Source of the DNA: Candidatus Bathyarchaeota archaeon
Lineage (GTDB): Archaea; Thermoproteota; Bathyarchaeia; Bathyarchaeales; Bathyarchaeaceae
Direction: 5' to 3'
DNA: 46,382 bases
Assembly: GCA_029882515.1 (NCBI GenBank)
Contig: JAOUKN010000003.1
Coordinates: 1-46,382, forward strand
Shown: piece after piece, positions 12,301 to 27,815 of the stretch
Position numbering within the stretch: the stretch's first letter is position 1
How the letters are laid out: the number at the start of each line of letters is the position of its first letter
Position numbers and translations under genes: made by a program
Notes under the pieces: generated by a model
Databases searched by the model: none
What the model saw: only the letters and a program-made list of their open reading frames with translations
What the model was told of the DNA's origin: nothing

Positions 12301-14772
12301 AGTGGCGTTGGTACCATCACCAAAATCCCAGAAATAACCAACAATCGAACCATCAGGGTCATGACTATTAGTAGCGTTAAAGGTGATGGTTTCATTGGTG
12401 TAAACAGTCTGAGTCGATTCGGTAAAAGCAGCTATAGGTGGACGGTTTAACACGGTCTTGAACGCTATCGTGCTATCAGTAGCGCCGTCATCATCTGTCA
12501 CAGTAAGAGTTACTACATAATTGCCATTATTAATGTACGAGTGATCAACAGTAACTCCAGTGCCATTGCTTCCATCACCAAAGTCCCAGAAATAACTGAT
12601 AATGCTACCGTCAGGATCGTAACTCGTGGTAGCGTTGAAGTATATAGTCTCACTGGTATAGACGGTTTCCGTTGATTCTGTAAATGAGGCAATGGGGGGT
12701 CTGTTCAGAACGGTCTTACCGGCACTGGTCAAGTTAGTTGCCCCATCGTCATCATTGACTGTGAGGGTTACTGTGTAATTTCCCTCCTGAGGGTAAGAGT
12801 GCTCGGTTGTCACGCCAGTGGTGTTGGTGCCGTCACCGAAATCCCAGAAATAACTAATAATCACACCATCTGGGTCGTAACTTGCAGAGGCGTTGAAGTA
12901 GATGATCTCCTCGGTATAGATAGTTTCCACAGATTCGGTGAAAAACGCTACAGGAGGCCGATTCAACACGGTCTTGGTGGAGGTTGCGGTGTCAGTTGCG
13001 TCGTCGTCATCCGTTACGGTCAAAGCCACCGTATAAGTTCCGTCGTCAACATAAGCATGATCAACCACAACGCCAATAGCATTGATGCCGTCACCAAAAT
13101 CCCAGAGATAGCTATTAATAGTGCCATCGGGGTCATAGCTGTCTGACGCGTCAAAGTAAATGATTTCACCAGTGAGCGCGGTTGTTGCAGACTCGGTGAA
13201 TATGGCTGCTGGTGGCCTATTTAGAACAGATTTGGTGGCTGACGCCAAGTCAGTTGCTTCATCATCATCCGTAATGGTTAGGGTTATCGTGTAGTTTCCA
13301 TCATCAGCATATGAGTGGCCTACAGCTATACTTGTGGCGTTTGTTCCGTCACCAAAGTCCCAATAGTAGCTCACTATTGAACCGTCAAGATCATAGCTGT
13401 CACTTGCGTTGAACGTGATAGGCTCACTTGTATAGACGGTTTCTGCCGATTCAGTGAATGTTGCAATCGGAGGTCTATTAAGCACTGTGATGCCCTTAGA
13501 AGTGATGTCGGATAGTCCGTCGTTATCGGTCACAGTGATTGTAACTGTGTATGTTCCGTCATCAGTGTAGATGTGGGTCGTGATCTCGCCTGTAGCGTTG
13601 GTTCCGTCGCCGAAGTCCCAGAAATAAGTGACGATTGACCCGTCAGGGTCATAGCTGCTCGAAGCATTGAAAGTTACGGTTTCGCTAACATAAGGGTATT
13701 CCGGGGTGCAGGAGAAATTGGCTACCGGTGGTACTCCCCACGTACGTAGAAGCGTGCAATCTATTTCCCATGAATCTTGATAGGTATCCGCTGTTTCGGT
13801 TCCCCCTTTGAATCTTATGGTAAACGTGGAACTAATCAGATAGTCAGTAATTGAAATGTTGTTCCATCCACTTGATAGGTCATTGAACAGGCTTTGCCAC
13901 GTGAAACCGTCCCAAACATCGATTCGAAGATTTTCCGATCCCATAGCTCCTCCGAATATGCAAAGTTGCTCGTTGGTCAGATCGTGCGTTGCATTGGTCC
14001 ATTGAACCTCCAGATCGAGATCATAGTTAGTCATGAAATATGTTACCACAATCTTGACATAATCGCAATAAATTGTGCCTTTGTTAGTCTCATCTTGGAC
14101 AACGAAGTAAAGGTACCCGTTCGCGTTAATGTAATCGGTAATTCCAGTCGTGATGGTTGCCGTAAAGTTTTCGTCTTGTCCTCCTGCGGCGACGGTAGAG
14201 TTTTTGATATCCCAAGCAGAACCTGTAAAGTTCCATAGACGTAGATAAACAGTTGCTCCTGCACCAAGGGGAGACCCTTCGAATAAAAGGTCTAGCTGAG
14301 TAATACTGTTCTCACTGATGGTGAATTTGAAGTTGAAGTATGGTCTTCTGCCTGGAGAGCAAGGGCCAGAGGAATCCCTTACGTCATTGGAGGACTCTAT
14401 CAAGGTGTAGTCTGCTACTTCTGTCTGTCCCGTTATGTCTGGTCCATCAGCGGGTGGAGAACTTGCTTGGCCTTTGTAAGCCCACTTGGTTAAGCCTGCG
14501 CCAGCACTATAATCGTAGGTTGTTTCATCAATACCACCAGTATTTTCTTCGTTTAGAGCGTCATAAATTGAGTCTGGACCGTATTGTTGGTCTGTGAAGT
14601 TTGAGTGTGTGCCCCTGTCGGGGCTAGTGTCCACATCACTTGTGTTGTTATCGACATAATCATACTCGTCTGAAGGATTGGCATAAACAGGGAAAAGTCC
14701 AGCTGCTACGCTAACTGAAACGAGTAATCCTAGCAGAAGAAGGAGAAAGAGCCCTCTTCTTCTCCTACGCAA
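319..14772 (-). CDS. Giant secreted PKD-repeat protein with C-terminal dockerin (4817 aa)
   Basis: A TTG start follows a GGGAG ribosome site. Residues 1-31 form a signal peptide (five arginines, then a leucine core). Residues about 32-344 are non-repetitive and beta-rich, possibly two jelly-roll-like modules. About 51 tandem PKD domains follow. The first 41 are near-uniform units of about 86 residues with the cores SYDPDG, YFWDFGDGTNATG and TVTDDDGAT. The last 10 are more divergent (TYSP-type). The C-terminus (about 4755-4817) is a dockerin-like pair of calcium loops beginning DVNGDGKVRIDD and DVNGDGKVRVDD. There is no C-terminal membrane span, so attachment to the cell probably goes through the dockerin binding a cohesin; two cohesin genes lie a few kilobases upstream. 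PKD domains are Ig-like folds common in archaeal surface proteins. A role as an extended glycosylated stalk or adhesin is inference. The frame is unbroken over 14.4 kb, so it appears functional. Confidence 0.93.
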   Translation of the reverse strand: MRRRRRGLFLLLLLGLLVSVSVAAGLFPVYANPSDEYDYVDNNTSDVDTSPDRGTHSNFTDQQYGPDSIYDALNEENTGGIDETTYDYSAGAGLTKWAYKGQASSPPADGPDITGQTEVADYTLIESSNDVRDSSGPCSPGRRPYFNFKFTISENSITQLDLLFEGSPLGAGATVYLRLWNFTGSAWDIKNSTVAAGGQDENFTATITTGITDYINANGYLYFVVQDETNKGTIYCDYVKIVVTYFMTNYDLDLEVQWTNATHDLTNEQLCIFGGAMGSENLRIDVWDGFTWQSLFNDLSSGWNNISITDYLISSTFTIRFKGGTETADTYQDSWEIDCTLLRTWGVPPVANFSCTPEYPYVSETVTFNASSSYDPDGSIVTYFWDFGDGTNATGEITTHIYTDDGTYTVTITVTDNDGLSDITSKGITVLNRPPIATFTESAETVYTSEPITFNASDSYDLDGSIVSYYWDFGDGTNATSIAVGHSYADDGNYTITLTITDDDEATDLASATKSVLNRPPAAIFTESATTALTGEIIYFDASDSYDPDGTINSYLWDFGDGINAIGVVVDHAYVDDGTYTVALTVTDDDDATDTATSTKTVLNRPPVAFFTESVETIYTEEIIYFNASASYDPDGVIISYFWDFGDGTNTTGVTTEHSYPQEGNYTVTLTVNDDDGATNLTSAGKTVLNRPPIASFTESTETVYTSETIYFNATTSYDPDGSIISYFWDFGDGSNGTGVTVDHSYINNGNYVVTLTVTDDDGATDSTIAFKTVLNRPPIAAFTESTQTVYTNETITFNATNSHDPDGSIVGYFWDFGDGTNATGVTTDHSFADDGNYTVALTVTDDDGATNIVFSTKTVLNRPPVASFTESAETVYTGETIYFDASGSSDPDGSIVSYFWDFGDSTNAIGVVVDHAYVDDGNYTVTLTITDDDGATETATATKTVLNRSPVASFTESAETIYTSETITFNASASYDSDGSIVSYFWDFGDGANATGIIVEHSYPEDGNYTVTLVVTDDDGATDAATSTKTVLNRPPVASFTESAETIYVDEVISFNASVSYDLDGSIAGYFWDFGDGTNATGIIVNHTYLDDGIHIVTLTITDNDGATGLATATKTVLNKPPVAIFTESAETVYVGEPITFNATNSYDPDGMIVSYFWDFGDGANATGITVNHAFATNGTFTVTLTITDDDGATDSASSTKTILMNESPVASFTESVETVYTNEPITFNASSSYDPDGIIVSYEWDFGDGTNATGIVVERTYVDDGIYTITLTVTDDKAATDTATSVKTVLNRSPVASFTESAETVYTDEVVSFNASASYDLDGTIVSYFWNFDDETNATGVTVNHAYADNGYYTVTLTVTDDDGATDTATAAKTVLNRSPVASFTESAETIYTNEAVTFNASASYDSDGSIVSYFWDFGDGANATGIIVDHAYADDGIYAVTLTVTDDDGATDAATSTKTVLNRPPVASFTESAETVYTSEAITFNASDSYDPDGMILSYFWDLGDGANATDVTVNHAYADDGNYTVTLTVTDDDGATALVSATKMILNRHPVALFTESAETVLTQEIITFNASSSYDPDGLIVSYFWDFGDGANATGAIVEYSYVDDGDYSVTLTITDNDGATDTASATKFVLNRSPLASFTESAETINTGETVHFNASQSYDPDGMIVSYFWNFGDGSNATGIVVDLAYADDGNYTVTLTVTDDDGTTDTTTSTKTVLNRPPVASFTESAETVYTGETIHFDASSSLDLDGSVVSYFWDFGDGTNATEVTVDHAYVDDGIYTVTLTVTDDDGATNSDTAIKTVLNRPPLATFTESAEVVYINETIYLNASDSYDLDGTIVSYWWDFGDGTNATGVTTEHSYSQEGNYTVILTVTDDDGATNSTSANKTVLNRPPIAVFTESAETVYTGDTISFNASESYDLDGIIISYFWDFGDGTNNTSIVTDHAYADDGNYTVTLIITDNDGALASTSSIKTILNRPPLAFFTESAETVYTSVTITFDASTSYDPDGTVVSYFWDFGDGTNATGITVGHSYADDGNYMVTLTVTDNDGAIDTATAIKTILNRSPVAIFTESASVVYTGEVIYFDALQSHDPDGVIVGYFWDFGDGTNATGVTVEHAYTDDGNYVVTLTVTDDDGAAGTATSTKKVLNRPPVAFFTESAETVYTSVTITFNASDGYDPDGAIVSYFWDFGDSTNATGIIVNHAYSEDGTYTVTLTVTDDDDATASAGATKTVLNRPPVAIFTESAETVLVDEVIYFNASVSHDPDGSIVSYFWDFGDGTNATDVTTEHAYADNGVYTVTLTITDNDGATTSATATKNVEVTPPVAIFTESAVTVYTGEFIYFNASASYDSDGVLVSYFWDFGDGTNATGVTAEYAYTDNGNYTVILTVTDDDGVTNSATTTKTVLNRAPSASFSESAETVYTDEVITFNASASYDPDGSIATYFWDFGDGTNTTGIVTNHSFANNGNCTITLTVTDDDGATGVATATKTVLNRPPVASFTESTETVFTGEVISFNASASYDPDGIITSRFWDFGDNTNATGTIVDHTYSEDGNYTVTLTVTDDDGASSSSIATKTVLNNSPVASFTETAETVYSAEIIAFNASASYDPDGTVVSYFWDFGDGINTTGVIVDHAYADDGDYTVTLTVTDDDGASSSTSVIKTVLNRSPIASFTESTETMLVGEVIYFNASESYDPDGVVVSYFWDFGDGTNATGMTTEHGYADDGVYTATLTVTDDDGATASTSATKTVGITPPVATFTESAETVLTGETIMFNASASYDFDGVIVSYFWDFGDGTNATSVIVVHSYVDDGVYNVTLTVTDDDGATASAVSTKTVLNRSPVPSFTESATTLSTDEVISFDASASYDSDGTIVSYFWDFGDGSNATGVIVGHAYVSDGVYTATLTVTDDDGATASTSATKMVLNRSPVASFAESAETVYTNEIISFDASASYDPDGAIVSYFWDFGDGTNATGVIVDHAFADDGIYTATLTVADDDNATATDTSTKTVLNRSPVASFTESAETVYTSDVITLNASNSYDLDGTIVSYFWDFGDGTNATGVVVDRSYADDGVYTVTLTILDDDGASVSASATKTVLNRSPVALFTESVTTVFTGEVIYFNASASYDSDGIIVSYFWDFGDGTNATGVIVDHAYVDDGTYTVILTVTDDDGVTTSTSATKTVLNRSPVASFTESAETVYTNEIISFNASASYDSDGTIVSYFWDFGDGTNSTGMIVEYSYVDDGTYSVTLTVTDDDGATGIITSTKTVLNRPPVALFTETAETVLTDEIITFNASASYDPDDYIISYLWDFGDSTNSTGAIVDHAYVDDGVYTVTLTVTDDDGATASATATKIVSNRSPVASFTESAENVLTGEVIYFNASGSYDPDGYVVSYFWDFGDGINAMGVTTEHSYAEKGNYIVTLTVTDDDGATASAIATKIVGNSSPVAIFTESAAAAYTGMVISFDASSSYDPDGVIVDYFWDFGDGTNAAGLSVGHAYADDGNYTVTLTVTDDADATATATSIKTILNRSPVSIFSESATVVYTGVVIHFDASTSYDSDGVILSYFWDFGDDTNATDIIVEHAYIDDGNYFVTLTLIDDDGATGMASSTKTVLNRSPVASFTESAETVYTEEVIHFDASASYDPDGYLATYFWDFGDGTNASNVILDHAFIDEGTYIVTLTVTDNDGATTSVSATKIVLSTSPVALFTESAEIVYTDEVIYFNASASYDPNGVIVSYFWDFGDSTNATGVTVNHSYADDGIYTVILTVTDNEGETSSATSTKTILNRFPVASFTESAETVYTGESITFNASGSYDPDGVIVSCFWDFNDGTNATGVLAEHAYVNDGNYTVALTVTDDDGSVVAAVATKTILNRSPSASFIYSPSYPIVGEIVAFNASASYDLDGYVVDYAWNFGDNTTTTVATPIVSHTYAIEGDYTVTLTITDDDSATNNSTDVVMVRNYPTAAFTYSPDPPAKNQSIIFNASSSVPNGGIITSYQWDFGDGNITAVSGPILTHVYSSEGNYTVVLNVTDSEGLSDSLSQTIRVGLSPVSSFTYSPATLYVGDTATFNASASYDPDGSIISYLWDFGDGSLPVNETDPITIHVYVSDGVYSVALTVTDNEGINATNSTMITVLRAPVASFTYSPGFVLVGDVVTFDASESYDPNGYIMNYTWDFGDGNITATTSPITTHTYATAKTYVVILTVTDNEGFTDEKTKFVRIREYPTASFMCIPDYPIAGEDVTFDASSSTPNGGSIDNYHWDFGDGSLPVDTPDPILTYLYTTVGDYVVTLTVSDSEDLSDTTSTTVSVRDYPTATFQYSPTPPTAGLPVNFDGSSSTPGQGGSITDYAWDFGDGNITTTTTSMVVHVYAKAGNYTAVLTVTDSEGLSDLNVELITVEQASPVAAFVYSPDPAVKGGIVTFNASKSHDPDGQIWVYHWRFGDGETDLGWDSIVTHVYTALGQYNVTLTVEDLDENTDAISKIVTVIAGPHVDFTWEPQYPEINEVIAFDASESYDPTGSIVNYTWDFGDGNSTTVFESIITHQYGAPANYTVALNVTNDQGLWNIRQKLVSVIVTGPYVDFSWTPSDPYVNETVLFDASNSIGTVAEIANYTWHFGDGETITVVDPVVYYAYASEGNYTVALNVTDTRGFWSTASKIISILPLSGPTADFTWPYPCYPNRTITFDASTSTSGWNGTDHPPIVSYMWDFGDGNITTISVFAINHTYVQPGNYIVALTVTDELDQSDTVSYVVAVSEKLLGDVNGDGKVRIDDILAVALAFGSEPGDPNWDPDCDVNGDGKVRVDDILIAAQNFGQELP
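10367..10575 (-). repeat. Near-identical repeat patch, copy 1 (partner at 11660-11868)
   Basis: Two exact blocks, 69 bp (10367-10435) and 98 bp (10478-10575), recur at the same offset of 1293 bp at 11660-11728 and 11771-11868. The offset equals five PKD units plus one codon. The rest of the array is much more diverged at synonymous sites, so this suggests recent gene conversion or unequal exchange. Confidence 0.75.
11660..11868 (-). repeat. Near-identical repeat patch, copy 2 (partner at 10367-10575)
   Basis: This is the partner of the patch five PKD units away. The similarity continues past 11868 into the next linker (about 11880-11945) with only scattered differences. Confidence 0.75.
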
Positions 14773-15837: not shown

Positions 15838-16824
15838 CTAGCCGCTATAATTGCCAAAGGCTTGCGCCACAATCAGAACATCATCTACGCGGACTTTGCC
15901 GTCACCATTTATGTCAACACTAGGATCCCAGCCTTCGTCACCCTCGTTCATGCCGAAAGCCAAAGCCACAGCCAACACGTCATCTACCCGCACCTTACCG
16001 TCATCGTTCACATCACCGATTAGAATGACTTCAAACGTTGTGCTATTGGTTATGAACAGCATTTGATATTGTGAAACTGCTGAGATGCTGTAGTTGCCCG
16101 TGATCCCTCCTTCAGGGTTCGTACGAAATGTCAGATTGAATTCTCCTGGTGTACTTGTGCCGAAAGATTCTTCGGAGGTATAGGTTTCTCCTCCCCCTCC
16201 ACCAACAATGTTAAATCCAACTGACGCTTCAGGGCAGTAGGCGAATCCGTTTTCGTTCGGCCATCCATACAACGCACTGGTGTATATAAACGCGGGGCCG
16301 AGAGATATGTATTCAGAGATTGGTATAGGCCAGATGAAACGACGTTCCTCTTGTTCTGGTCCTAGCTCTGTTTGGAATAGTTTCTGCGCTATGAAGGGTA
16401 AACCGGTTGAGTCATAAAGATTCAACGTGACCGTCACATTCTCTGAGGTGAGCCCGTTGTTTTTCACGGTTATGTTTATTCCTAGACCTTCGCCTAGTGT
16501 GAAGCTCGATTTGGCGTTTCCAAATCGGTCACATGTGACCAATTCTGGGATCTCAACAACCCATGGACCCACAGGATTGTCCCCTGTCGGCAGGGTCCTT
16601 AATACGAACAGGTTCTCATTTGGATCGTCTATTTGGATTGCTACAAAGCCATCAGTTACAGGTGAACCATCCAGCATTAGGCTTCCATGGACCGAAACGC
16701 TTTCTCCAAGACCGTTTTCCTGGTCAACACTCAAAATGAGTTTCAAGCTCACGGCTTGTACAACTTGGACTGTTACGAGGATGACGAGGATAGTAAGGAA
16801 GGTGAACCACTGTTTCCGAGACAT
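15838..16824 (-). CDS. Secreted beta-sandwich protein with C-terminal dockerin (328 aa)
   Basis: ATG start. Residues 1-26 are a signal peptide. Residues about 27-110 resemble an Ig-like domain (VDQENGLGESVSVHGSLMLD, the style of extracellular 'polysaccharide-deacetylase-linked' or MG-like modules). Residues about 110-170 resemble CARDB (INITVKNNGLTSENVTVTLN). About residues 268-328 are a dockerin-like pair with calcium loops DVNDDGKVRVDD and DINGDGKVRVDD, each followed by an AxAFG-type helix end. A short glycine run (NIVGGGGGETY) separates the middle modules. It lies 97 bp downstream of the cohesin-dockerin gene. It is probably an exported partner docked to a cohesin. I recognise no enzyme motif. 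Confidence 0.85.
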   Translation of the reverse strand: MSRKQWFTFLTILVILVTVQVVQAVSLKLILSVDQENGLGESVSVHGSLMLDGSPVTDGFVAIQIDDPNENLFVLRTLPTGDNPVGPWVVEIPELVTCDRFGNAKSSFTLGEGLGINITVKNNGLTSENVTVTLNLYDSTGLPFIAQKLFQTELGPEQEERRFIWPIPISEYISLGPAFIYTSALYGWPNENGFAYCPEASVGFNIVGGGGGETYTSEESFGTSTPGEFNLTFRTNPEGGITGNYSISAVSQYQMLFITNSTTFEVILIGDVNDDGKVRVDDVLAVALAFGMNEGDEGWDPSVDINGDGKVRVDDVLIVAQAFGNYSG

Positions 16825-16921
16825 TTTGTTCTATCCCGTTTTTATCTATAAAGAAAACTTAAAGATACAAGTATAAACCTTGTGCAGCTGTCTTGTTGCC
16901 ACTTGTCTGAGAAACGGATGG

Positions 16922-17956
16922 TTACGGTGCCCATTCTTTTCCAAACTCCTTAGCGACAGCCAAAACATCGTTTACGCGCACCTTGCCATCCTTGTCTAGG
17001 TCTGTATATGGGTTCCAGTCCGGGTCACCTTCATTGGAGCCGAAGGCTAAGGCCACAACTAGAACATCATCTACGCGGACTTTTCGGTCACCATTTATGT
17101 CTCCGATGATCGTGGCGAAGATTTTGATGTTTCTTGTTGAGTGTTGATAGGTGAACTGTATGAAATCGTGTGTTGCATTCTTAGAGAGGCTATAGGGAGT
17201 CGGAGTGGTGTCTACGAGAACCATTATTGTACTGACGTTTCCGTTGAGGAACGATGTTGGTGTTGCCACAGTTGTCGACCCAACAGTTCCTGTGGTTCCT
17301 GTTGCGTCAAACATAATTTTTTTCGATCCTTGGTCGTAGTTGAACGTTGTGATCGTTGAGTTGCTGAAGATTAGAACATGATAGGTTTCTTGGTTGATTA
17401 TCACCGTAAACAAGTTTTCTTCAAAGCCTTGGTCTGTGACGATTACAATGCCATCCATTCCTTCGAATGGAATGAATTCATAATCTGGCTCCTGAAGATA
17501 GGTGTCGCAGAGTTCGCTGGGACATTCGGGTTCTACTATTTCTAAGCTGCTGATGCCTGGGTCTATGCTGTTGAATTCTACTTGAACTAAATTGCCTGAG
17601 CCATTTACGCCATAGGTTCCATCTAATACACAGAAAACCAGCACGTATCCTTCTGCATTGTCAATTTCAGGTGGAAATAGAATGAAGTAGCTTCCGAAGA
17701 TATTTTCGTCAGGAACTGTAATGTCAGTACAGTTGATTATTGAGGGGTTGAAACCAAGTCGAAGTTGCCATGTATTGAGGTTGGTCACATTGGATACGGT
17801 AACGTTGATTGTGACTGTTTGCCCTATCTGGACATAGCTCTTGTTAGGATTCACGATGATTGCCGTTCCTGCGAGCGGAGAAGCAAAGCGGAAGCTGAGA
17901 AATATTATCGTGGAAGTGACAAGTAATCCTAATAAGATTGTTGCTTTGCGATTCAT
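16922..17956 (-). CDS. Secreted cohesin-plus-dockerin protein (344 aa)
   Basis: ATG start with a purine-rich GAGG upstream. Residues 1-30 are a signal peptide. Residues about 31-180 match a cohesin-like fold: IIVNPNKSYVQIGQTVTINV, NVTNLNTWQLRLGFNPS, then GVNGSGNLVQVEF and a terminal DGIVIV strand, the usual cohesin progression. Residues about 185-275 are another beta module. Residues about 283-344 are a dockerin with loops DINGDRKVRVDD and DLDKDGKVRVND. A protein with both halves of the interaction can act as an adaptor or self-assemble into chains. The cohesin assignment rests on motif pattern only and needs a structure or profile check. Confidence 0.83.
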   Translation of the reverse strand: MNRKATILLGLLVTSTIIFLSFRFASPLAGTAIIVNPNKSYVQIGQTVTINVTVSNVTNLNTWQLRLGFNPSIINCTDITVPDENIFGSYFILFPPEIDNAEGYVLVFCVLDGTYGVNGSGNLVQVEFNSIDPGISSLEIVEPECPSELCDTYLQEPDYEFIPFEGMDGIVIVTDQGFEENLFTVIINQETYHVLIFSNSTITTFNYDQGSKKIMFDATGTTGTVGSTTVATPTSFLNGNVSTIMVLVDTTPTPYSLSKNATHDFIQFTYQHSTRNIKIFATIIGDINGDRKVRVDDVLVVALAFGSNEGDPDWNPYTDLDKDGKVRVNDVLAVAKEFGKEWAP

Positions 17957-18066
17957 GTAAATCCTCTTCTCAAGCTCATTTAGATCTCCGAGACAGTAAA
18001 GGGTTTTGGTTAAGTTACTTTTACCTTCATATTCTTACATGATTCTCTGTATAGAAATTTTCACAA

Positions 18067-18100
18067 AAAAGGAGAGGATGAGATGTGTGCACGTGCACAC
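18067..18100 (-). terminator. Perfect 16-bp palindrome followed by a T run, after the scaffoldin gene
   Basis: GTGTGCACGTGCACAC at 18085-18100 is a perfect palindrome starting 20 bases after the stop of the scaffoldin-like gene. On the minus strand it is followed by a pyrimidine-rich stretch and TTTTTT (18065-18070). This fits a hairpin terminator. A dimeric repressor site for the next gene (start 17956) is the alternative. Confidence 0.45.
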
Positions 18101-18120
18101 GCTTAGTTTACGGTTTTACC

Positions 18121-20436
18121 CTAGTATGGCAGTACGTAGATTGTGGTTGTGTCTTCCGGTCCTGCAGCAGTCCATCCGTCCACATACCAGAAGAGTGGAA
18201 CTGCATGGATTGTTGCTGTGCCAACGAAGACAAACTTGTCAATGTGTAGACTTAGTTCCACCAGGTACTCTTCCGCCGTGCAGAATTCTGCTCCGGTGAC
18301 ATTGAGCATTACTACTCCAAATGCAACTGGCACGTTGAGTTCGTCATGGATGGTTACGCGCATTGCGACGAGATATTGTTGTTGTGCATGGCTGGTGAAG
18401 GTAATACTGATGTCTACCCATTCACAGTGTTCGTAGTAGTACTTGTCAGTTGTAACTTCGACGATGTTTACTAGCCAGTCGTAGTGGAATTCAAGCTCAT
18501 CGTAGATTGATTCGCAGGCGACGTCGACTTCTGCTACAACTCTCCATACTCCGAGTAGGCTTTCAGGATCATCGCAGGGCCACGGTAGTCTGAATGAGAC
18601 GCATGCCACGCCGTCTTCGTCTGTGACGGCTTGCAGCGTTGTCCACATGTTGTCTTGATTATCCCAGACTGTGAAGGTTACTAGTTTTTGCTGTACTGGC
18701 CAGCAGTTGAAGGTTACGTTTGCGCAGAGGATGACCTCTTTTTGTGGCCAGAACATGTCGCTGGGCTGCATTAATCCTTGGCCTCCGTATGGAGCTGGAT
18801 ATTGGGTGTATACGTCGATGATTCGACCCACTTCAAATGAGCCTAGTATTGTATAGGTACCGTCTACGGGGTCTCGATAGCCTATGGGTTCACTCTTCTT
18901 GTCAATCATTAGTATGTCGTACAGGATGAAGTCGCATTCGAAGTCTTCTGGATCGCAACTGACGTCTTGCGCTGTCACTTCAAAGGTGATGATGGCGATT
19001 GTTCCATTTTCTACCGGATCTCCGCCAGCCACAGGATCTGGATAGTATCCTGTTCCGTTTGGCAGGATCAAGTCCATGAGCACGATGTAGTCGCCTTCGT
19101 CAAACGCCTGGAAGATTGTAGGTTGCGGTGCACCGGTTTGCTCGAATTGGGGTAGGTAGTCTCCTTCTTCGATGCTTACTACTTGCATCAAATCGGGACA
19201 ATAGGTTAACCTGAATTCAACTCCTACGAGGTACCAGTTCCAGTGTAGCTCCTTGATGTTCACAGCGATTGTAAATTCTTCGCCGACTGCAGGTGCAGGT
19301 CCCAATGTGGTATCGTTGGGCACCACTTCTAAGTATGGTGGTACGATTGATAGGTACGCAACTACCTGAACCATACCGTCTACAGGTTCACTGTCTATTG
19401 TATATTCATGGTCCCAGACTTCGGTTTCGTCGCAGAATGCTAGTGCAGTTTCGTTGTAGGCTCCTTGTGCCTCTGGTGGGGCGTTTCCTTGTACTAGTAT
19501 TTCGAAGGTGATGGTGGCAACGAGTACAGAGGCTCCTCCGTCTTGTGAGCCAGAGAAGCCGCGAACGGTGGCGTTAACCCAGTCTAAGGTATCATGGCTC
19601 ATGGTGATGCTGTTCGTGCCAGTCCAATCCGCCGTGTTAAGGACTGCTGCTGTAGCGTTGATGAGGGTTGAGTCATAGCTTAGGCAGAAAGTGGCGTTGG
19701 TCATGCCCCAACCGGCGTAGTAGTTGGCAATAACAACGTCAACATCGAAGGTTGTACCAACCCAGTGAGTCCATTGGTCGAAAATGTTTTCGTCGTCGTC
19801 GGTGGTGAACCAACAGGGTGCTGGTGCCGACCACGTGAAATTGTAGTTCGCGTTAATTCCTATCCATCGGTAGTAGACCTGTGCATCGTCTTGGATGTAG
19901 TTATCCTCGCTAGTCGTGATGTCAAGGAGACTGTTAAATTCTTCACCTTTTGTCGGAACCGATACCACTTCGAATTCAAGGTAGGCCACGCTGGATGGGC
20001 AATGGCTTGGACCTGGATACGGACCACTGAAGTACGACTCAGCGAATAGTACGTAGTCGCGAGTGCTATCATATGAGCCGTATGACGGGGATGTAGCGAT
20101 GTGTGTGGTTCCAGCTTTTATGAAGAGTTCGCTTGCGTCGGTGCCTTCATCAATTCCGGAGTACCAGGCGCCATTACATTGTAGGTGGTTCTTGTTGTAT
20201 AACATGTAGAACTGCCATGAAGCAACGCTTACGTTTGAGTTTACGAATACGGTGACATTGAATTTGTAGCCGATGGATGTCGTAGACGTATCGAAGCTGA
20301 TGTTGGCGGGTTCAATCCACAGGGCATTGGCCGGGTGAGTTGTGCTGGGAACATCATATGCAAGGACTGGTAGTACAGAAAGTAGAAGCATTAGAACTGC
20401 CATTGACACTATAATCTTCTTTAGGTTTCTTTTCAA
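18121..20436 (-). CDS. Scaffoldin-like secreted protein with three cohesin-like domains
   Basis: I place the start at a TTG at 20436, giving MKRNLKKIIVSMAVLMLLLS, a clean signal peptide. The frame is open to an ATG at 20460, but that codon sits about where transcription should begin from the box A at 20480-20491, and GGGAG lies 4 bases before the TTG. Numbered from 20460, three cohesin-like beta-sandwiches follow: about 45-200 (SIGYKFNVTVFVNSNVSVAS), 215-375 (VGTTFDVDVVIANYYAGWGM) and 385-545 (VGEEFTIAVNIKELHWNWYL). Each has the hydrophobic strand order of cohesins and ends with a GxV-type strand. Residues about 550-779 hold two Ig/MG-like domains. There is no dockerin and no C-terminal anchor. 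Three cohesins could hold three dockerin proteins, and four dockerin proteins are encoded nearby. The cohesin calls are by pattern and may be a divergent subfamily. Confidence 0.82.
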   Translation of the reverse strand: MKRNLKKIIVSMAVLMLLLSVLPVLAYDVPSTTHPANALWIEPANISFDTSTTSIGYKFNVTVFVNSNVSVASWQFYMLYNKNHLQCNGAWYSGIDEGTDASELFIKAGTTHIATSPSYGSYDSTRDYVLFAESYFSGPYPGPSHCPSSVAYLEFEVVSVPTKGEEFNSLLDITTSEDNYIQDDAQVYYRWIGINANYNFTWSAPAPCWFTTDDDENIFDQWTHWVGTTFDVDVVIANYYAGWGMTNATFCLSYDSTLINATAAVLNTADWTGTNSITMSHDTLDWVNATVRGFSGSQDGGASVLVATITFEILVQGNAPPEAQGAYNETALAFCDETEVWDHEYTIDSEPVDGMVQVVAYLSIVPPYLEVVPNDTTLGPAPAVGEEFTIAVNIKELHWNWYLVGVEFRLTYCPDLMQVVSIEEGDYLPQFEQTGAPQPTIFQAFDEGDYIVLMDLILPNGTGYYPDPVAGGDPVENGTIAIITFEVTAQDVSCDPEDFECDFILYDILMIDKKSEPIGYRDPVDGTYTILGSFEVGRIIDVYTQYPAPYGGQGLMQPSDMFWPQKEVILCANVTFNCWPVQQKLVTFTVWDNQDNMWTTLQAVTDEDGVACVSFRLPWPCDDPESLLGVWRVVAEVDVACESIYDELEFHYDWLVNIVEVTTDKYYYEHCEWVDISITFTSHAQQQYLVAMRVTIHDELNVPVAFGVVMLNVTGAEFCTAEEYLVELSLHIDKFVFVGTATIHAVPLFWYVDGWTAAGPEDTTTIYVLPY

Positions 20437-20479
20437 TATTCTCCCTTCTCTTTTCAACATGTATCTGATGAACTCTGCG

Positions 20480-20646: not shown

Positions 20647-23145
20647 TTATGGCCAGCCGAAGTTGAGGGCGACAGCCAGAATGTCGTCGACTCGGATTTT
20701 GAAGTCGCCGTTGACGTCGCATCGTGGATCCCATCGCAAGAAGGCGACAAGGGGATCGGAACCGAAGGCGAGGGCAGCGGCTAAGACGTCGTCCACACGA
20801 ACTTTGTCGTCGATGTTGATGTCTTCGGGGATGGTGGCGTGGATGGTGTGCGTATACGTGTCCACGAGCAGCGTACCTTGCCAAACTTCCACGGTGATCT
20901 CTACGGTTCCTGCGCAGAGGGGATAGATGGTGTAGGGGCCGAGTTTCGCCCAGTCAAACACGTTGACTTGGGTGTCGTTTTCGACATGCTTTACTACGCC
21001 GTCTTCTTTGATCACTACGTCCACAGTCTTGTTGGCGAGTTCGCCGTCGACTTTGTAGCCATAGTTCGTAACCAAGACGTTGTATTCCACGGGATCTTCA
21101 ACGCAATCTGTCTCGTTCACGAAAGCAATGTAGGGTGCATCAACAACCGCCTTGATGGGGCCGTCCACCCAGTAAACGTCGCTTGAGTGGACTTCGCCGA
21201 TTCGGGTGGCGTCATCGTAGTAGTCGTAGACGAAGGCGCCAGCACCGACGTTGGCGGTTTGTGGGGCGTTGCTGTCACGTGGCGGCAGACCGGCATCCGG
21301 CCAAGCAGCGTAGTAGTCGAGGTACTGTGGGCGCACGGATGTGTACCAGAGTTCTTTGGCTTTGGCGGTCCAGTCTTGGTAATCCCACGCATCGGGGACC
21401 ATGGCGTCAAACGCGATTTTCTGTTCGTCGGGATTAACTGAGGATTGTTCAGCCATTTCGTCGAGGATGTAGTAGATGTGCTTCGGGAAGTAGGACGCGA
21501 TTTGTGGATAGTCTTCGTACCAGAGGCTGGTCGCATTGAAGTAGGTGATGAACTCGTAGGGACCTTTGGCTTCCGTGTAAACGACAGTTTTCCACGTGCT
21601 CTCGTATCTGCCAACCTCCCATTTCTTGAGCATGTTGAAGGCGAATTGGCAGTCGTCGGCCGTGAACTGGAAGGTTTTGCCGCCTGCACCGGTGTCCTGC
21701 CAGTAGACATCGTTTCGGAGGTAGTAGGTGACTTTCATGCCGTCCGGTATGTTCAACGCTGCCGATACGTCAGCGTTAACCGTGCTGTTGACGGCTTCAA
21801 TTTTGGATTTGTATGCTATCCAAGGTAAGTCGGTGCTGGGAACTGGTGGCGAAAACATCATTAATGGTTCGTGGAGTCCGTCTAAGAGCAACCATCCATA
21901 TAAGGTATTGTCGGTCCATGGGCTCAGTGTGTCAGGTTCGTCTCCCATGGCGCGTCGTATTAAGCCTTCGTAGGGCGGATTGTTATATACAGTGCCTGGA
22001 CCCCAGTGGACGCTTCGCCAGTTCAGGTAGCATTGGTCCGCGCCTGGACCCGGTGAGCCGATGAAGTTATCGAGGTCGGGATCCCACGTAGTAATACCTT
22101 GACCCGTGGTGACGGGGAAGAGGGGCATCCAGTCACTGACGAAGAGGCGTTGCATCTCCCAAACGGCGTCCAGCACAGTAGCTTCATCCAGATTGTACAT
22201 CATCGTCTCCAAGAGGTCATCCATTGTATCGTTGACGAAGCCACCAAAGTTCCATTGCCATGGACCGATGGTGCTTGAATGGTAATTGTCAAAACACCAG
22301 TCCGGAGTTAGTCCCAAACCAGTCAATCCGATGCCAATAAAGTCGAAGTCATGGAAATCCATTAGCTCGTAGACTAAGGTCATGAACTCTCGATCGGTCA
22401 AGATGAAGTTAGGACCGTTCGTGGCGCCTTTACTGTCAAAGAAGGCGTTCACTTGGCCAACGAATTGTTGGAGGATGTATTCCCATGAGAGGGTGCCCGT
22501 GCTGTACACGACTTCGAGGTCTCGTACGCGGCTGCCGTCAGGGTTAAGCAGATAACCCGCATCGTCGCCAGCCCCTAAGGTGTAATCGGCATCCATCAGA
22601 ATCTGCCAGGCGGTATCGTTGTCAGTGTCCGGCATGACGTCCACATTGTTGCACCAGCCGCCTTGAGCGGGCATTATCGCGGATCCTAGGGCGACGGTGA
22701 GGGAGTTCTGGTAGTACTCGTAGATGGCGTCAGCTTTGTCATCCATACCCCACACGTAGGATAGCGCCACTCTAAAGCGGCTATCGTTGAGGGGCTTACA
22801 CGTTTCTCCCGGCGTCCTTCCGGCAGGTCCACCGACCACGTGTGCACAGTATTCATCTCGGTTTTGTACTGCCATAAATCCAAAGGCAGATATAGGATCA
22901 AACGTCATGTTGTATCCCGCCGCGACACAAGCATCGATGAGTTCAGTGGTTCCCGGACCAGGCCTCATGTCAATTTCGTGGTCAACCAACAAGGCAGCGT
23001 TCATCTGTGCGGTGTCATCGTACACCTTGTACTGGATCTTTTGAATGTGCGGAAACGGATCGTTAATGTTGGTTGTCGCAGATACGCTTAAGAGCAATAT
23101 AAGAGCAAACAGCGTAGCAATTACAATAGGTTTTTTCGAAAGCAA
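20647..23145 (-). CDS. Oligopeptide ABC transporter binding protein, apparently circularly permuted, with C-terminal dockerin
   Basis: Family 5 (DppA/OppA) extracellular solute-binding protein. I place the start at a TTG at 23145 (MLSKKPIVIATLFALILL), preceded by AGGAGAAAGGAG; the frame is open to a TTG at 23178 but the box A at 23190-23202 favours the inner start. Numbered from 23178, residues 45-390 resemble the C-terminal half of the family: IQYKVYDDTAQMNAALLVD (usually mid-protein), then PLNDSRFRVALSYVWGMD. Residues 402-675 resemble the N-terminal half: YEGLIRRAMGDEPDTLSPW, MKVTYYLRNDVYW, FTADDCQFAF, and last VGAGAFVYDYY with DVYWVDGP, which normally sits just before the segment that here comes first. 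Residues about 680-782 are CARDB-like; 785-843 are a dockerin (loops DINIDDKVRVDD, DVNGDFKIRVDD). It is divergent from the permease-ATPase operon and surely feeds it. Confidence 0.9.
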   Translation of the reverse strand: MLSKKPIVIATLFALILLLSVSATTNINDPFPHIQKIQYKVYDDTAQMNAALLVDHEIDMRPGPGTTELIDACVAAGYNMTFDPISAFGFMAVQNRDEYCAHVVGGPAGRTPGETCKPLNDSRFRVALSYVWGMDDKADAIYEYYQNSLTVALGSAIMPAQGGWCNNVDVMPDTDNDTAWQILMDADYTLGAGDDAGYLLNPDGSRVRDLEVVYSTGTLSWEYILQQFVGQVNAFFDSKGATNGPNFILTDREFMTLVYELMDFHDFDFIGIGLTGLGLTPDWCFDNYHSSTIGPWQWNFGGFVNDTMDDLLETMMYNLDEATVLDAVWEMQRLFVSDWMPLFPVTTGQGITTWDPDLDNFIGSPGPGADQCYLNWRSVHWGPGTVYNNPPYEGLIRRAMGDEPDTLSPWTDNTLYGWLLLDGLHEPLMMFSPPVPSTDLPWIAYKSKIEAVNSTVNADVSAALNIPDGMKVTYYLRNDVYWQDTGAGGKTFQFTADDCQFAFNMLKKWEVGRYESTWKTVVYTEAKGPYEFITYFNATSLWYEDYPQIASYFPKHIYYILDEMAEQSSVNPDEQKIAFDAMVPDAWDYQDWTAKAKELWYTSVRPQYLDYYAAWPDAGLPPRDSNAPQTANVGAGAFVYDYYDDATRIGEVHSSDVYWVDGPIKAVVDAPYIAFVNETDCVEDPVEYNVLVTNYGYKVDGELANKTVDVVIKEDGVVKHVENDTQVNVFDWAKLGPYTIYPLCAGTVEITVEVWQGTLLVDTYTHTIHATIPEDINIDDKVRVDDVLAAALAFGSDPLVAFLRWDPRCDVNGDFKIRVDDILAVALNFGWP

Positions 23146-23189
23146 ATACTCCTTTCTCCTATTTTTTCTATACTGCAAGAATATTGAGG

Positions 23190-23313: not shown

Positions 23314-24318
23314 ATGGGATTCAGAGGTTATTTCTTAAACAGGATAGCAATAGCAGTAGCAGTCCTCTTCATCGTATTAGTATTGAACTTCTTGATTTTC
23401 CGTGTGTTCAGCCCCTATGATCCCACTGATATGATAATAGACCCAGATTTCGAGCAAGCAACGAAGGATAGGCTCAGAGCTGAATGGGGATTGGATCGCC
23501 CTCTTTTTCCCGATCAATTCGTCTTGTACCTGAAAAATCTGCTCACCTGGAACTATGGGCGGCAATTTGACCAATCAAAAAGTCTTATAGCACCGCAGAT
23601 GGCTTGGCGCCTCCGAAACACACTTTTGCTTCTTGGAACAGCAACGATAGGAGTCATACTCGTAGGAATCCCGCTCGGAATCTTGGCAGGGTCAAGAAGA
23701 GGAAGCAAAACAGACATAACGATCATAGGCGCAGGGCTCTTTACATGGGGTGTTCCAACCTTTTTCGTTCAACTGATTTGGTTGTTCGTCTTTTCTGCGA
23801 CCTGGAACTCCGTTTTTGGGGCGCCACTTATCCCTAGAAGTGGAGTCGTCGGCTTGCCTCCACCAGAAGGACTACTTGAAACATTAAAGGATGTTGCATG
23901 GCATGCAATTTCTCCCATATGTACCTTGATCATTGCAGGTTTTGGATCCTGGGCATTGTACACTAGAAACATGATGGTCGATGCGCTCACAGAAGACTAT
24001 ATTCAGACGGCTCGTGCTAAAGGAGTGAAGGGCAGAGATGTGTTGTTTCGGCATGCCTTTCGAAGCATACTTCCCCCTGTCGCCACTATGGTGGCTTTGG
24101 CGATTCCGGGAATAGTCACGGGTGCCATAATAACTGAGAGTCTGTTCGGTTGGCCAGGGATTGGAGCATGGTACATAAATGCTCTGATGAACCGCAATCA
24201 TCCAGTGGCTCAAGCAGTCCTCTACAACTATGCAGTTTTGATGATAGGGGCCAACCTTGTCACAGATCTGCTTTATGGGTTCCTAGATCCTAGAATACGT
24301 GTAGGCCAAAGAAGGTAA
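23314..24318 (+). CDS. dppB: Peptide ABC transporter permease, DppB-type (334 aa)
   Basis: This is the first of the two membrane subunits that form the peptide channel. It has an N-terminal span (about 8-30) typical of DppB, a loop with FSPYDPTDMI, then further spans. The EAA-type coupling motif for the ATPases is seen in YIQTARAKGVKGRDVLFRHA, and the C-terminus has the usual FGWPGIGAWYINALMNRN and a DPRIRVG ending. Length is normal for DppB. ATG start with GAGGAGGT. The next gene begins 16 bases after its stop. Confidence 0.93.
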   Translation: MGFRGYFLNRIAIAVAVLFIVLVLNFLIFRVFSPYDPTDMIIDPDFEQATKDRLRAEWGLDRPLFPDQFVLYLKNLLTWNYGRQFDQSKSLIAPQMAWRLRNTLLLLGTATIGVILVGIPLGILAGSRRGSKTDITIIGAGLFTWGVPTFFVQLIWLFVFSATWNSVFGAPLIPRSGVVGLPPPEGLLETLKDVAWHAISPICTLIIAGFGSWALYTRNMMVDALTEDYIQTARAKGVKGRDVLFRHAFRSILPPVATMVALAIPGIVTGAIITESLFGWPGIGAWYINALMNRNHPVAQAVLYNYAVLMIGANLVTDLLYGFLDPRIRVGQRR

Positions 24319-24333
24319 AGGAGGCTCAACAGA

Positions 24334-25854
24334 GTGGCCCTGTTTCGCAAGGAAAAAAGAACAATATACGTGAGAAAGATCAAGAATTTTTGGGAAGAGT
24401 TCAGTCACAACAGAATCGGTCTTGCCGGTATTGGTATCTTAATATTCTACGTAATGGTAGCTGTCTTCACTCCCTATATTTCTCCGATGAGACCCACAAG
24501 CCAAGAGTATAATCCTCCTCGCTCGGCTGCGATGTATGCAATGCCCGAATGGGTGCGTATCTTCCCTCAGTTTCAGGATTTACCTCCGTCTTTTGAGGTC
24601 CGATTATTAGAGAACGTGACGCTAGTGAACTCGACCGTAACTGACCGTGCAACACTCCAATTTGACAAAGAAGCGCTCAACATTACTTTCCATGCAGACG
24701 CTGAGGAAGAGGAAGGAAGCATTCTTCTTCATCTGACTGCATTTAGTTACGTCTATGCTCCTCCATCGGACTTCAAGCTCACAACGGTCTACTACGAAAC
24801 AGGTAACCAAATACGGTATGAAATAGACTTGTTCTTGACGACTGATCAACAAAATGATATATGGGACGAATGGCTGGAAGATCCAACAAGAGCTGTCTTA
24901 TATACTAATGACAGAAAAGTGACTCGCTACCCAAGTGTTGACAAAAAGATTAGAAGAAGCTTGTATGCTGGGTTAATGAATGAACAGCTGTTCGCTTGGC
25001 AATACCCGAATGACGCCGTACAATACGCATTTCTCCATCCGTCAGAGATGCTACTCTCCAAAAAAGGAAGTTACGACTTCTATCTTGAGATAAAATTCAA
25101 CTCGCTTGCGTCTACTTCAACATGTAACATACATATTGACACTGCTGAAGTCAAGTTCTTTGGTGATGTTTGGGGATTATTAGGAAGTGACAGAGTTGGT
25201 CACGACGTTTGGGCACAACTAATTTATGGAGTTAGAATCTCCTTGATCGTTGGATCTCTTGCAGCGGTTCTCTCATCAGTCCTTGGGATTTCGTTCGGAG
25301 TGATAGCAGGATATTCTGGAGGGAGAACCGATCAAATAATAATGCGAGGTGTAGACGTGCTTCTCTGCTTACCAGTACTTCCTATCTTGCTTATATTATC
25401 GTCATACTGGAGCTTCAACGTGTATTACGTTATCCTTCTTATAGCCATTTTTGGATGGCAAGGTTTATCAAGAATAGTCAGATCCAAAGTTCTCTCCCTT
25501 AAAGAAGTGCCTTTCATAGAAAGTGCAAGAGCTGCGGGCGCAACCTCAGGATACATTATGACGCGCCACATTATACCAAATGTCCTCCCAGTAGTTATGG
25601 CAGCCATGGTTCTCGCTGTACCCGGCGCTATTCTAACCGAAGCCGCGTTAAGCTTTCTAGGATTCGGGGATCCCTCCGTGCCAACTTGGGGAAGAATGCT
25701 CTACCGATCCCGAACGCAAGGAGGTTTTGAGAGTTTAGCTTGGTGGTACGTCATACCGCCTGGGCTTGCAATCACCTTCTTATGTTTGGCTTTTGTGTTC
25801 ATTGGACATGCCTTAGACGAAATCGTGAACCCGAGACTTAGGAGACGACGCTAA
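24334..25854 (+). CDS. dppC: Peptide ABC transporter permease, DppC-type, with a large extracellular insertion (506 aa)
   Basis: GTG start with AAAGGAGG overlapping the end of the previous gene. Residues about 30-50 form the first span, ending TPYISP. From about 280 the protein is a standard DppC: LLGSDRVGHDVWAQLIYGVR (family form LGTDxxGRD), the EAA-loop ESARAAGATSGYIMTRHIIP, and LTEAALSFLGFGDPSVPTWG. DppC is normally about 300 residues. Here about 210 extra residues (66-278), with alternating beta-type hydrophobicity and two NxT sequons, sit between the first span and the core, on the outer face. They may touch the dockerin-bearing binding protein, which is inference. Its stop codon is directly adjacent to the next ATG. 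Confidence 0.93.
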   Translation: MALFRKEKRTIYVRKIKNFWEEFSHNRIGLAGIGILIFYVMVAVFTPYISPMRPTSQEYNPPRSAAMYAMPEWVRIFPQFQDLPPSFEVRLLENVTLVNSTVTDRATLQFDKEALNITFHADAEEEEGSILLHLTAFSYVYAPPSDFKLTTVYYETGNQIRYEIDLFLTTDQQNDIWDEWLEDPTRAVLYTNDRKVTRYPSVDKKIRRSLYAGLMNEQLFAWQYPNDAVQYAFLHPSEMLLSKKGSYDFYLEIKFNSLASTSTCNIHIDTAEVKFFGDVWGLLGSDRVGHDVWAQLIYGVRISLIVGSLAAVLSSVLGISFGVIAGYSGGRTDQIIMRGVDVLLCLPVLPILLILSSYWSFNVYYVILLIAIFGWQGLSRIVRSKVLSLKEVPFIESARAAGATSGYIMTRHIIPNVLPVVMAAMVLAVPGAILTEAALSFLGFGDPSVPTWGRMLYRSRTQGGFESLAWWYVIPPGLAITFLCLAFVFIGHALDEIVNPRLRRRR

Positions 25855-26817
25855 ATGACGCTTCTCAAAGTTGAGAACTTGACCATGTACTGGGAAGTAT
25901 TACGAGGATACGTTAAGGCAGTAGACGACGTCAGCTTTAGCCTTGAAAAGGGACATTCTCTTGGACTCGCTGGCGAATCCGGATGCGGAAAAACAAGTAC
26001 TGCCTTGGCAATTCTAAGACTGTTGCCATATAATGGGCGGATAATGGGTGGAAACATCATCTTCAACGGAGAAGAACTGCTACAAATGAATGACCAAAGG
26101 TTTCAGAAGGAAATTCGATGGAAAAAAATGTCTGTAATTTTTCAGGGAGCCATGAATGCGTTACATCCAATTCAAAGAATTGGAGACCAGATAACTGAAG
26201 CTATTCTTCTCCATGAGAACATAAGCAAGAAGGAAGCAGTGGACAGAGCTAGTAAGCTACTCGATCTGGTTGGAATCGGAGCGGAGAGAATCGATCGATA
26301 CCCCCATGAACTCAGCGGAGGACTAAAACAACGAACTGTAATTGCCATGGCCCTAGCATGTAATCCTGACCTTATCTTCGCAGACGAACCGACAACCGCA
26401 TTAGACGTCATTGTTCAAGCCCAAGTGCTAAAAGTGATCAAGGAACTCCAGCATAAATTGAATCTCTCTATGATCATGATTTCACATGACCTCGCCATGA
26501 TCGCTGAAACCTGCGATGAGATCGCAATTATGTATGCAGGAAAAATAGTGGAATACGGAGATGTCACAACCATCTACAAAAAGCCGTTGCACCCCTACAC
26601 ACAGAAACTCATAAAAGCCTTCCCCAGTGTCATAGGACCCAAAACGGAACTCGCAACCATACATGGATTTCCACCCGACCTGCTGAAGCCTCCACCAGGA
26701 TGCAGATTCCATCCAAGATGCCCATACGCCATGGAAATTTGTAGAAAGAAAGACCCGCAATCAGCAAAAGTAGATGGCAAATATCATTCAGTAGCCTGTT
26801 ACCTAATTGGAGACTAG
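25855..26817 (+). CDS. dppD: Peptide ABC transporter ATPase, DppD-type (320 aa)
   Basis: This is a cytoplasmic ATPase that drives peptide import. Motifs in order: Walker A GESGCGKTS (about 41-49), the Q-loop in VIFQGAMNALHP, signature LSGGLKQR (a variant of LSGGMRQR), Walker B LIFADEPTTALD, and the switch histidine in MISHDLAM. The C-terminus has the family's oligo-HPY extension, with GCRFHPRCPYAMEICRKK and a late VACYL; these four cysteines match the pattern reported to bind an iron-sulfur cluster in some DppD/DppF proteins. The ATG abuts the previous TAA, so translation is probably coupled. Confidence 0.95.
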   Translation: MTLLKVENLTMYWEVLRGYVKAVDDVSFSLEKGHSLGLAGESGCGKTSTALAILRLLPYNGRIMGGNIIFNGEELLQMNDQRFQKEIRWKKMSVIFQGAMNALHPIQRIGDQITEAILLHENISKKEAVDRASKLLDLVGIGAERIDRYPHELSGGLKQRTVIAMALACNPDLIFADEPTTALDVIVQAQVLKVIKELQHKLNLSMIMISHDLAMIAETCDEIAIMYAGKIVEYGDVTTIYKKPLHPYTQKLIKAFPSVIGPKTELATIHGFPPDLLKPPPGCRFHPRCPYAMEICRKKDPQSAKVDGKYHSVACYLIGD

Positions 26818-26822
26818 AACTC

Positions 26823-27815
26823 ATGGAAGAAAGCGTTGTAGAAATTCACGATCTGAAAAAATATTTTCCTATAAAGTTAGGTTTCCTCAAGAGTTTAACA
26901 ATTAAGTTAGTTCCAGAGATCCGTGCTGTTGACGGCGTAAGCTTCAAAATAGCCCCTCGGGAAGTTTTTGGTCTCGCTGGAGAAAGTGGCTGCGGAAAAA
27001 CAACTACCGGGAGATGCATACTCAGGCTAATTGAACCCACAAACGGTAAAATCTTGTTTAAAGGGACAGATTTAACGGCTCTTGCTTCAGACAGAATGAC
27101 CAAACTCCGAAGGAAAATGCAGATTATATTTCAGGACCCCTACGAATCTTTGAACCCACGAATGAGCGTATATGACATCATAGCAGAGCCGTTAACTATC
27201 CAAGGAATCGCGACAAGTGCAGATCAAATCACAAAGCTGGTAAGTACTGCTTTGGAGGAATTGGATCTCAATCCACCAGAGGAATTCATGTACAGATTTC
27301 CCCACGAGCTCAGCGGTGGTCAAAGGCAAAGAGTGGCCATAGCAAGAGCCTTCGTACTTAAGCCCGAGTTCATTGTTGCCGACGAACCCGTATCTATGCT
27401 TGACGCTTCCATTAGATCCGAAGTTCTAAATCTCATATTAGGCCTGATAGAGGAAACCCAGTGCGCATTTCTTTACATCACGCACGACATCGCACTGACA
27501 CGGCACATTTGTAATCGCATTGCAATCATGTATCTAGGAACAATCACGGAGAAAGGACCAACTGAGAAGATGATTCAGAACCCTTTACACCCATATACTG
27601 AAGCGTTAATTGCTGCAGTACCAGTCCCTGATCCAACAGCCCGTAGAACTGAAATTGTAATTAAAGGTGAGGTTCCCAGCCCTATCAACCCACCCCCAGG
27701 ATGCAGATTTCATCCAAGATGTCCATATGCAAAACAAAAATGCCAAGAAGAAGAACCACAACTGGTAAATGCCACAAAAGACAGATATGTCGCATGTCAC
27801 TTCCCACTTGGATAG
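26823..27815 (+). CDS. dppF: Peptide ABC transporter ATPase, DppF-type (330 aa)
   Basis: Second ATPase of the operon, starting five bases after DppD. It has Walker A GESGCGKTT, the Q-loop IIFQDPYESLNPRMSV, which is diagnostic of DppF/OppF, signature LSGGQRQR, Walker B FIVADEPVSMLD, and the switch THDIA. The C-terminal extension again carries four cysteines (GCRFHPRCPYAKQKC and VACHFP). It ends the operon; the next gene converges from the other strand. Confidence 0.95.
   Translation: MEESVVEIHDLKKYFPIKLGFLKSLTIKLVPEIRAVDGVSFKIAPREVFGLAGESGCGKTTTGRCILRLIEPTNGKILFKGTDLTALASDRMTKLRRKMQIIFQDPYESLNPRMSVYDIIAEPLTIQGIATSADQITKLVSTALEELDLNPPEEFMYRFPHELSGGQRQRVAIARAFVLKPEFIVADEPVSMLDASIRSEVLNLILGLIEETQCAFLYITHDIALTRHICNRIAIMYLGTITEKGPTEKMIQNPLHPYTEALIAAVPVPDPTARRTEIVIKGEVPSPINPPPGCRFHPRCPYAKQKCQEEEPQLVNATKDRYVACHFPLG

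Follow-up and report, generated by a model that had tools for sequence, protein, structure and literature searches.

The locus and its genes

The window considered here, i.e. the whole analysed stretch of 46,382 nucleotides, comprises positions 1 to 46,382 of contig JAOUKN010000003.1 in the assembly GCA_029882515.1 of a Candidatus Bathyarchaeota archaeon. Near its middle, a gene for a family 5 binding protein (SBP; 843 aa, TTG start, a single open frame without internal stop) lies 135 bp from a divergently transcribed DppB-DppC-DppD-DppF set and next to a gene for a cohesin-domain protein. The features are as follows:

18121-20460 (-), secreted cohesin-domain protein, downstream of the SBP (PF00963, E 1.4e-11)
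20647-23178 (-), circularly permuted family 5 SBP, type A (ORF, Pfam, local HMM)
23074-23178 (-), signal peptide, residues 1-35: basic residues, then a hydrophobic stretch ...KKPIVIATLFALILLLSVSATT (mean hydropathy 2.4 over 19 aa)
22060-23052 (-), block 1, residues 43-373 (local HMM columns 240-526, Pfam 146-312/313)
21949-22059 (-), junction, residues 374-410, between the two HMM blocks, old C-terminus joined to old N-terminus
21151-21948 (-), block 2, residues 411-676, a homologue of the first ~200 residues in canonical SBP_5 proteins
20839-21150 (-), beta-rich C-terminal extension, residues 677-780, CARDB/Ig-like as judged by eye from sequence alone, no Pfam match
20650-20838 (-), dockerin-like C-terminal domain, residues 781-843, with two DxNxDxxxxxxD loops
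23314-24318 (+), DppB-type permease (BPD_transp_1, E 3.8e-37)
24334-25854 (+), DppC-type permease, 506 aa (OppC_N 17-60, BPD_transp_1 318-504)
24514-25188 (+), extracytoplasmic insertion that separates TM1 of DppC from its permease core (about residues 61-285)
25855-26817 (+), DppD-type ATPase (ABC_tran 6e-25, oligo_HPY 1.5e-21)
26823-27815 (+), DppF-type ATPase (ABC_tran 1e-32, oligo_HPY 3e-22)

The order of the segments

The protein belongs to SBP_bac_5 / cluster C by the curated Pfam cut-off (PF00496, E = 3.9e-15, 56.3 bits versus a cut-off of 32.4), and its N-terminal hydrophobic stretch indicates secretion. The Pfam match falls into two stretches, and the collinear N-to-C order of the cluster C fold is lacking, so that the protein is a permuted variant. 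The best stretch aligns residues 43-243 with profile positions 146-312; in a six-frame search of the genome, the N-terminal stretch corresponds to profile 146-313 (E 5e-9) and the C-terminal one to profile 14-141 (E 1e-4). The same picture is obtained with a local full-length HMM of 545 columns, built from 11 canonical relatives of the class Bathyarchaeia, where residues 43-373 align with columns 240-526 and are followed by residues 411-521 aligning with columns 54-141. Block 1 corresponds by homology to the last ~300 residues of canonical SBP_5 proteins (residues ~209-491 of mature DppA), and block 2, the match of which is weak (12.6 bits with the local HMM, E 1e-4 with Pfam), carries an insertion of ~60 aa at about 580-640 and ends in the motifs VGAGAFVYDYY (644) and DVYW (667).

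When the core is rotated so that block 2 comes first, a single collinear Pfam match over positions 14-312 results, with 68.3 bits as compared to 56.3 bits before rotation. A rotation scan with the local HMM peaks in the region 366-411 at only 4 bits above the native start, which is too weak when taken alone, Pfam giving the clearer gain; the scans of two relatives reach their maximum at the junction, and those of E. coli DppA and of one canonical archaeal SBP at the native start. The first-pass annotation of this DNA had read a swapped order of the family 5 landmarks from the motifs, and both the order and the motifs are borne out by Pfam, the six-frame search and the local HMM blocks; the junction, placed by it near 21975-22011, indeed falls inside the region between the blocks, and the two halves, compared with the SBP_bac_5 profile, show swapped coordinates. 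A phmmer search with the window SBP against PDB yielded only weak matches, to DppA and HbpA. NCBIfam has no model for it, and the 10 models that match one bacterial relative score far under their cut-offs.

When considering such an arrangement, it is important to ask whether the halves of neighbouring normal genes could have been joined in the wrong order in the course of assembly or gene calling. The genome is, after all, in 230 contigs (88% complete). However, a paralogue on an independent contig (C191:26712-28334; the gene runs off the contig end) is 65% identical to the window SBP and has the same block order, no leftover SBP halves adjoin the window gene, and the same order is found in relatives from many independent assemblies, single-contig genomes included. 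We give an artefact of this kind practically no credence, and assembly error as a cause is ruled out by the C191 paralogue together with the dozens of relatives in the same order.

Type A, an old branch of the family

The relatives of the window SBP form a class that we call type A. The 40 proteins classified are all cut at one place, just past the ..GYW motif, at residues ~207/209 of mature E. coli DppA; block 1 starts at HMM columns 227-256 (median 238), block 2 ends at a median of column 239, and the linker between the old termini has a median length of ~25 residues. The cut, called precise in the first-pass annotation, is thereby confirmed, and the same order, which that annotation had proposed to look for in relatives, is present in them; the window SBP shows the type A block order with its cut near column ~238. 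As a control, the other SBPs from the same scan of named genomes were run against the same HMM, and nearly all of these ~70 remaining loci were canonical.

With a profile built from 14 type A proteins, the window SBP is matched right across the junction (E = 7e-57), and many families of the phylum likewise contain matches that span it. Type A members come from Bathyarchaeia (the class of the window), Sulfolobaceae, ammonia-oxidising archaea, Thermofilaceae, Culexmicrobium, Thermoprotei and three bacterial MAGs. In Sulfolobaceae (family f36, assigned through the 7-kDa DNA-binding protein), such matches were found in at least 16 of the 18 sampled genomes. The ammonia oxidisers (families f23 and f52) were assigned through archaeal AmoA, and in the canonical HMM their SBPs show a clear block 1 and a weak block 2. 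At several of their loci (L133, L134, L135, L144, L146), a long type A SBP is encoded and the fetched flanks contain no importer genes. The bacterial cases, namely, Clostridia RSA5, a Synergistaceae MAG and Bacillota AS04akNAM_94, are known from MAG contigs of 53-124 kb and represent minimal cores of ~570 aa. A scan of IMG/VR with one type A protein gave no match; in a plasmid collection scanned with the bacterial member L162, the 15 rows listed all matched in two pieces at less than 32% identity, with no named cultured plasmid-borne type A protein among them.

When 90 re-ordered sequences were placed in a tree, a single branch (SH-aLRT 91) separated all 39 type A rows from the rest, and none of 500 shuffles gave a value as low for the clustering of type A. 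The trees of the separate halves are weaker, with type A within one change in the N-terminal half (no support) and two changes in the C-terminal half; all of these trees were quickly made from divergent sequences. They favour one origin for type A. The permutation is no peculiarity of one genome: type A is an old branch of the family and is widely spread. The first-pass annotation overlooked the age of this clade, as well as the other permutation in three further SBP_5 genes of the same genome and the co-variation of DppC, both considered below.

The C-terminal ends vary within type A: most archaeal members carry a TM anchor, the window SBP a dockerin-like domain, and the bacterial proteins nothing at all. 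Hence, anchoring alone does not explain the permutation.

One fold or two remnants?

Swapped halves could also result from a chance fusion of two incomplete SBP remnants, left by decayed tandem genes, that no longer make up one receptor. The window SBP is, by itself, compatible with such decay inasmuch as it is divergent and has insertions, and its AlphaFold2 (AF2) model, computed for the core from a too shallow alignment of 9 rows, is of low confidence (pLDDT 52.5, pTM 0.50), for which reason the fold search was performed without it. In contrast, the bacterial member L162 is predicted with high confidence as one body (pLDDT 94.5, pTM 0.92), the model being poor only at residues 1-3 and 317-320, the latter within the new linker. 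The alignment used for L162 consisted of 9 type A rows and 45 pairs of canonical halves entered as separate rows, and AF2 may have leaned on its memory of the canonical fold. Decay is also hard to reconcile with a cut and an order that 40 open-frame proteins, from both Archaea and Bacteria and from several classes, have in common, with the intact importer that adjoins the window SBP, and with the frame of the 65%-identical paralogue, which has been kept open too. On these grounds, we reject decayed tandem genes as very improbable.

The claim that the window SBP is one permuted fold is, thus, upheld for its relative L162, as a confidently predicted single body, whereas the window protein's own model stays at low confidence; for the latter, a single fold would follow by homology from the junction-spanning match to the type A profile. 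A Foldseek search with the L162 model against PDB aligned ~290-350 of its 540 residues to family 5 SBPs (query TM ~0.48) and gave no full-length match. Such partial alignments are expected for a permuted fold in a search that follows sequence order, since one half alone can be aligned, and they are a sign that no solved structure has the segment order predicted for type A. The type A profile matched 115 PDB sequences at E <= 0.01; the 60 solved SBP_5 proteins listed among them all aligned in two separate stretches, and none of them aligned across the junction.

The adjoining importer and its unusual DppC

The DppBCDF-type genes at 23314-27815 place the window SBP in the genomic context of an importer, and importer genes adjoin most type A SBPs for which enough flanking sequence is available, most of these SBPs being located directly upstream of DppB-DppC. 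In the window DppC, no Pfam domain is found between OppC_N (17-60) and the permease core (318-504). An extracytoplasmic insertion of ~185 aa in this place is present in all 22 type A loci with a DppC gene beside the SBP and absent from most partners of canonical and type B proteins. The gap between TM1 and the core measures 136-263 aa (median 213) in the 22 type A neighbours, as compared to 20-94 aa in 48 of 50 canonical neighbours (median 24) and 20-46 aa in 9 of 10 type B neighbours (median 25). Three other DppC proteins (L170:9592-12789, L174:9517-11820, L245:2979-4649), which adjoin canonical or type B SBPs, have gaps of 295-795 aa with apparently repeated, propeller-like sequence.

A profile of the insertions from archaeal members and the window, whose DppC is in the aligned set, finds the inserts of bacterial DppC proteins at 3e-35 and 2e-31 and those of Sulfolobaceae weakly, at 2e-11 to 8e-6, with shuffled copies at E > 1; by this comparison of sequences, the type A insertions are homologous to one another. 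The co-variation was recognised in hindsight, and common descent ties the loci together, which makes it one strong association rather than 22 independent ones.

These data bear on yet another reading, whereby the permuted protein is folded but serves as a surface binding or sensor protein, its dockerin tethering it to proteins with cohesin domains and the nearby Dpp genes being mere neighbours. The dockerin-type tail and the cohesin gene downstream fit this reading, as do the location of the window SBP on the strand opposite to DppB and the lack of importer genes in the fetched flanks of several type A genes of the same family (genomes G018 and G007) and of those from the ammonia oxidisers. 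We consider it unlikely, if less so than decay, given that most type A SBPs lie directly upstream of DppB-DppC and that DppC, the window's own included, co-varies with the permutation.

A second permutation in the same genome

The three other SBP_5 genes of the genome are permuted as well, at a different cut, and are denoted type B; all have DppBCDF genes nearby, with an ordinary DppC:

C72:3552-4451 (L010, genome G000), type B SBP_5
C65:4997-5884 (L011, genome G000), type B SBP_5
C155:1982-2968 (L012, genome G000), type B SBP_5

With the type A pair added, five SBP_5 genes were found in this genome, and every one of them is non-canonical. Type B proteins begin with the last ~150 residues (columns ~378-520), followed by columns ~46-372 and, usually, by a TM anchor. 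The two types have in common the SBP_5 family, the genome, the swapped order and the adjacent importer genes, but differ in the position of the cut (DppA mature residues ~341-345 versus ~207/209), in the ordinary DppC of type B and in its TM anchor, which usually comes right past the cut. In the tree, type B does not join type A and lies off its branch; for type B itself, one origin is compatible with the trees (p 0.11).

The cohesin-dockerin surroundings

The dockerin-like tail of the window SBP has no Pfam match of its own; its residues 774-841 are, however, 58% identical to the tail of the ORF 319-14772 (-), which is recognised as Dockerin_1 (1.4e-5). This ORF encodes 4817 aa with about 51 PKD domains and the C-terminal dockerin. 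Cohesin- and dockerin-bearing ORFs cluster beside the SBP (15838-20460, minus strand), and dockerin-like tails close to that of the SBP occur on many contigs of the genome, which suggests a cell-surface cohesin-dockerin system in the host archaeon. The cohesin protein encoded at 18121-20460 is a possible docking partner of the SBP tail.

A probable re-cut cluster C receptor

The explanation that we prefer, with a probability of about 0.88, is that the window SBP, a cluster C protein with a natural circular permutation, acts as the receptor of a DppBCDF-type importer, and that the permutation arose once, with DppC evolving alongside. After the signal peptide, the mature chain would begin at the strand that normally comes after the NPDYW motif and continue through the old C-terminal ~300 residues; a short linker would then lead from the former C-terminus to the former N-terminus and its ~200 residues, with the Ig-like stretch and the dockerin coming last. 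The permuted chain is envisaged to fold into one two-lobed Venus-flytrap that catches its solute outside the cell and, docking on DppBC, hands it over to the divergently transcribed DppBCDF-type importer. The extra ~185-aa extracytoplasmic domain of DppC would be a likely docking or sealing part for such a receptor, and the dockerin tail of the window SBP would anchor it at the surface via cohesin.

The permutation would have arisen once, in the ancestor of type A, a clade now distributed over Thermoproteota and some bacteria. Its presumed route is a tandem duplication with fusion, after which the outer halves were lost. A 2368-aa ORF from Thermoplasmata (L158:121-7224) contains two SBP_5 domains fused head to tail, so that an arrangement of the kind expected for the duplication intermediate does exist in nature.

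As compared to DppA, OppA, NikA and AppA, the well-known members of family 5 / cluster C, type A proteins are homologous in both halves, have the same partner genes and, in the case of the modelled relative, are predicted as one two-lobed body; the difference is that the halves are swapped, with the cut at the place indicated above. In E. coli, a scoop of DppB enters the cleft of DppA, which delivers a dipeptide held by R383 and D436 (precursor numbers; PMC12136057). In type A rows, the Asp of this pair is kept in 5 of 39 and the Arg in 13 of 39, in columns rich in gaps. The window SBP lacks the pair that would define a DppA proper, the D436 position falling into a gappy Gly-Leu region (IGLTGL---GLTPD). 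The rarity of this Asp in type A, and its absence from the window SBP, make a ligand other than a dipeptide likely.

A natural permutation of an ABC-importer SBP is already known, namely, the ligand-binding TpMglB-2 (Tp0684) of Treponema pallidum, described as 'Type Ic / Cluster Bc', where the authors tie the permuted topology to tethered SBPs (PMC4990184). TpMglB-2 resembles type A in being a naturally circularly permuted ABC-importer binding protein but has the Type I / cluster B sugar-binding fold, another cut and other host taxa, with no known change of the permease; all profile and fold matches in the present analysis are to family 5 / cluster C, so that the window SBP does not belong to cluster B. 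TpMglB-2 was the sole natural permuted SBP found in the open-access literature, where no natural permutation of a cluster C SBP came up, and CIRPIN mentions no transporter or SBP case (PMC12667903).

A bolder extension, to which we would grant somewhat less than even odds, is that type A constitutes a separate class of ABC importers, in which receptor and translocator changed together. The receptor would have been re-cut in a single ancient event, and the DppC insertion would be a new module for docking or sealing, able to recognise the permuted receptor and replacing or adding to the scoop seen in E. coli DppB. On this view, type B represents another, independent re-cutting of this receptor in the same organisms.

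Implications

Family 5 binding proteins are among the best-studied importer receptors. The 60 solved relatives listed, out of 115, share one segment order, and type A departs from it. The spread of type A, together with the matching change in the permease, would mean that the interface between receptor and translocator tolerates new termini, which makes type A a natural experiment on the requirements of docking. Profile-based annotation cuts type A proteins into two pieces or overlooks them, so that the uptake of nutrients by globally abundant archaea may be under-annotated.
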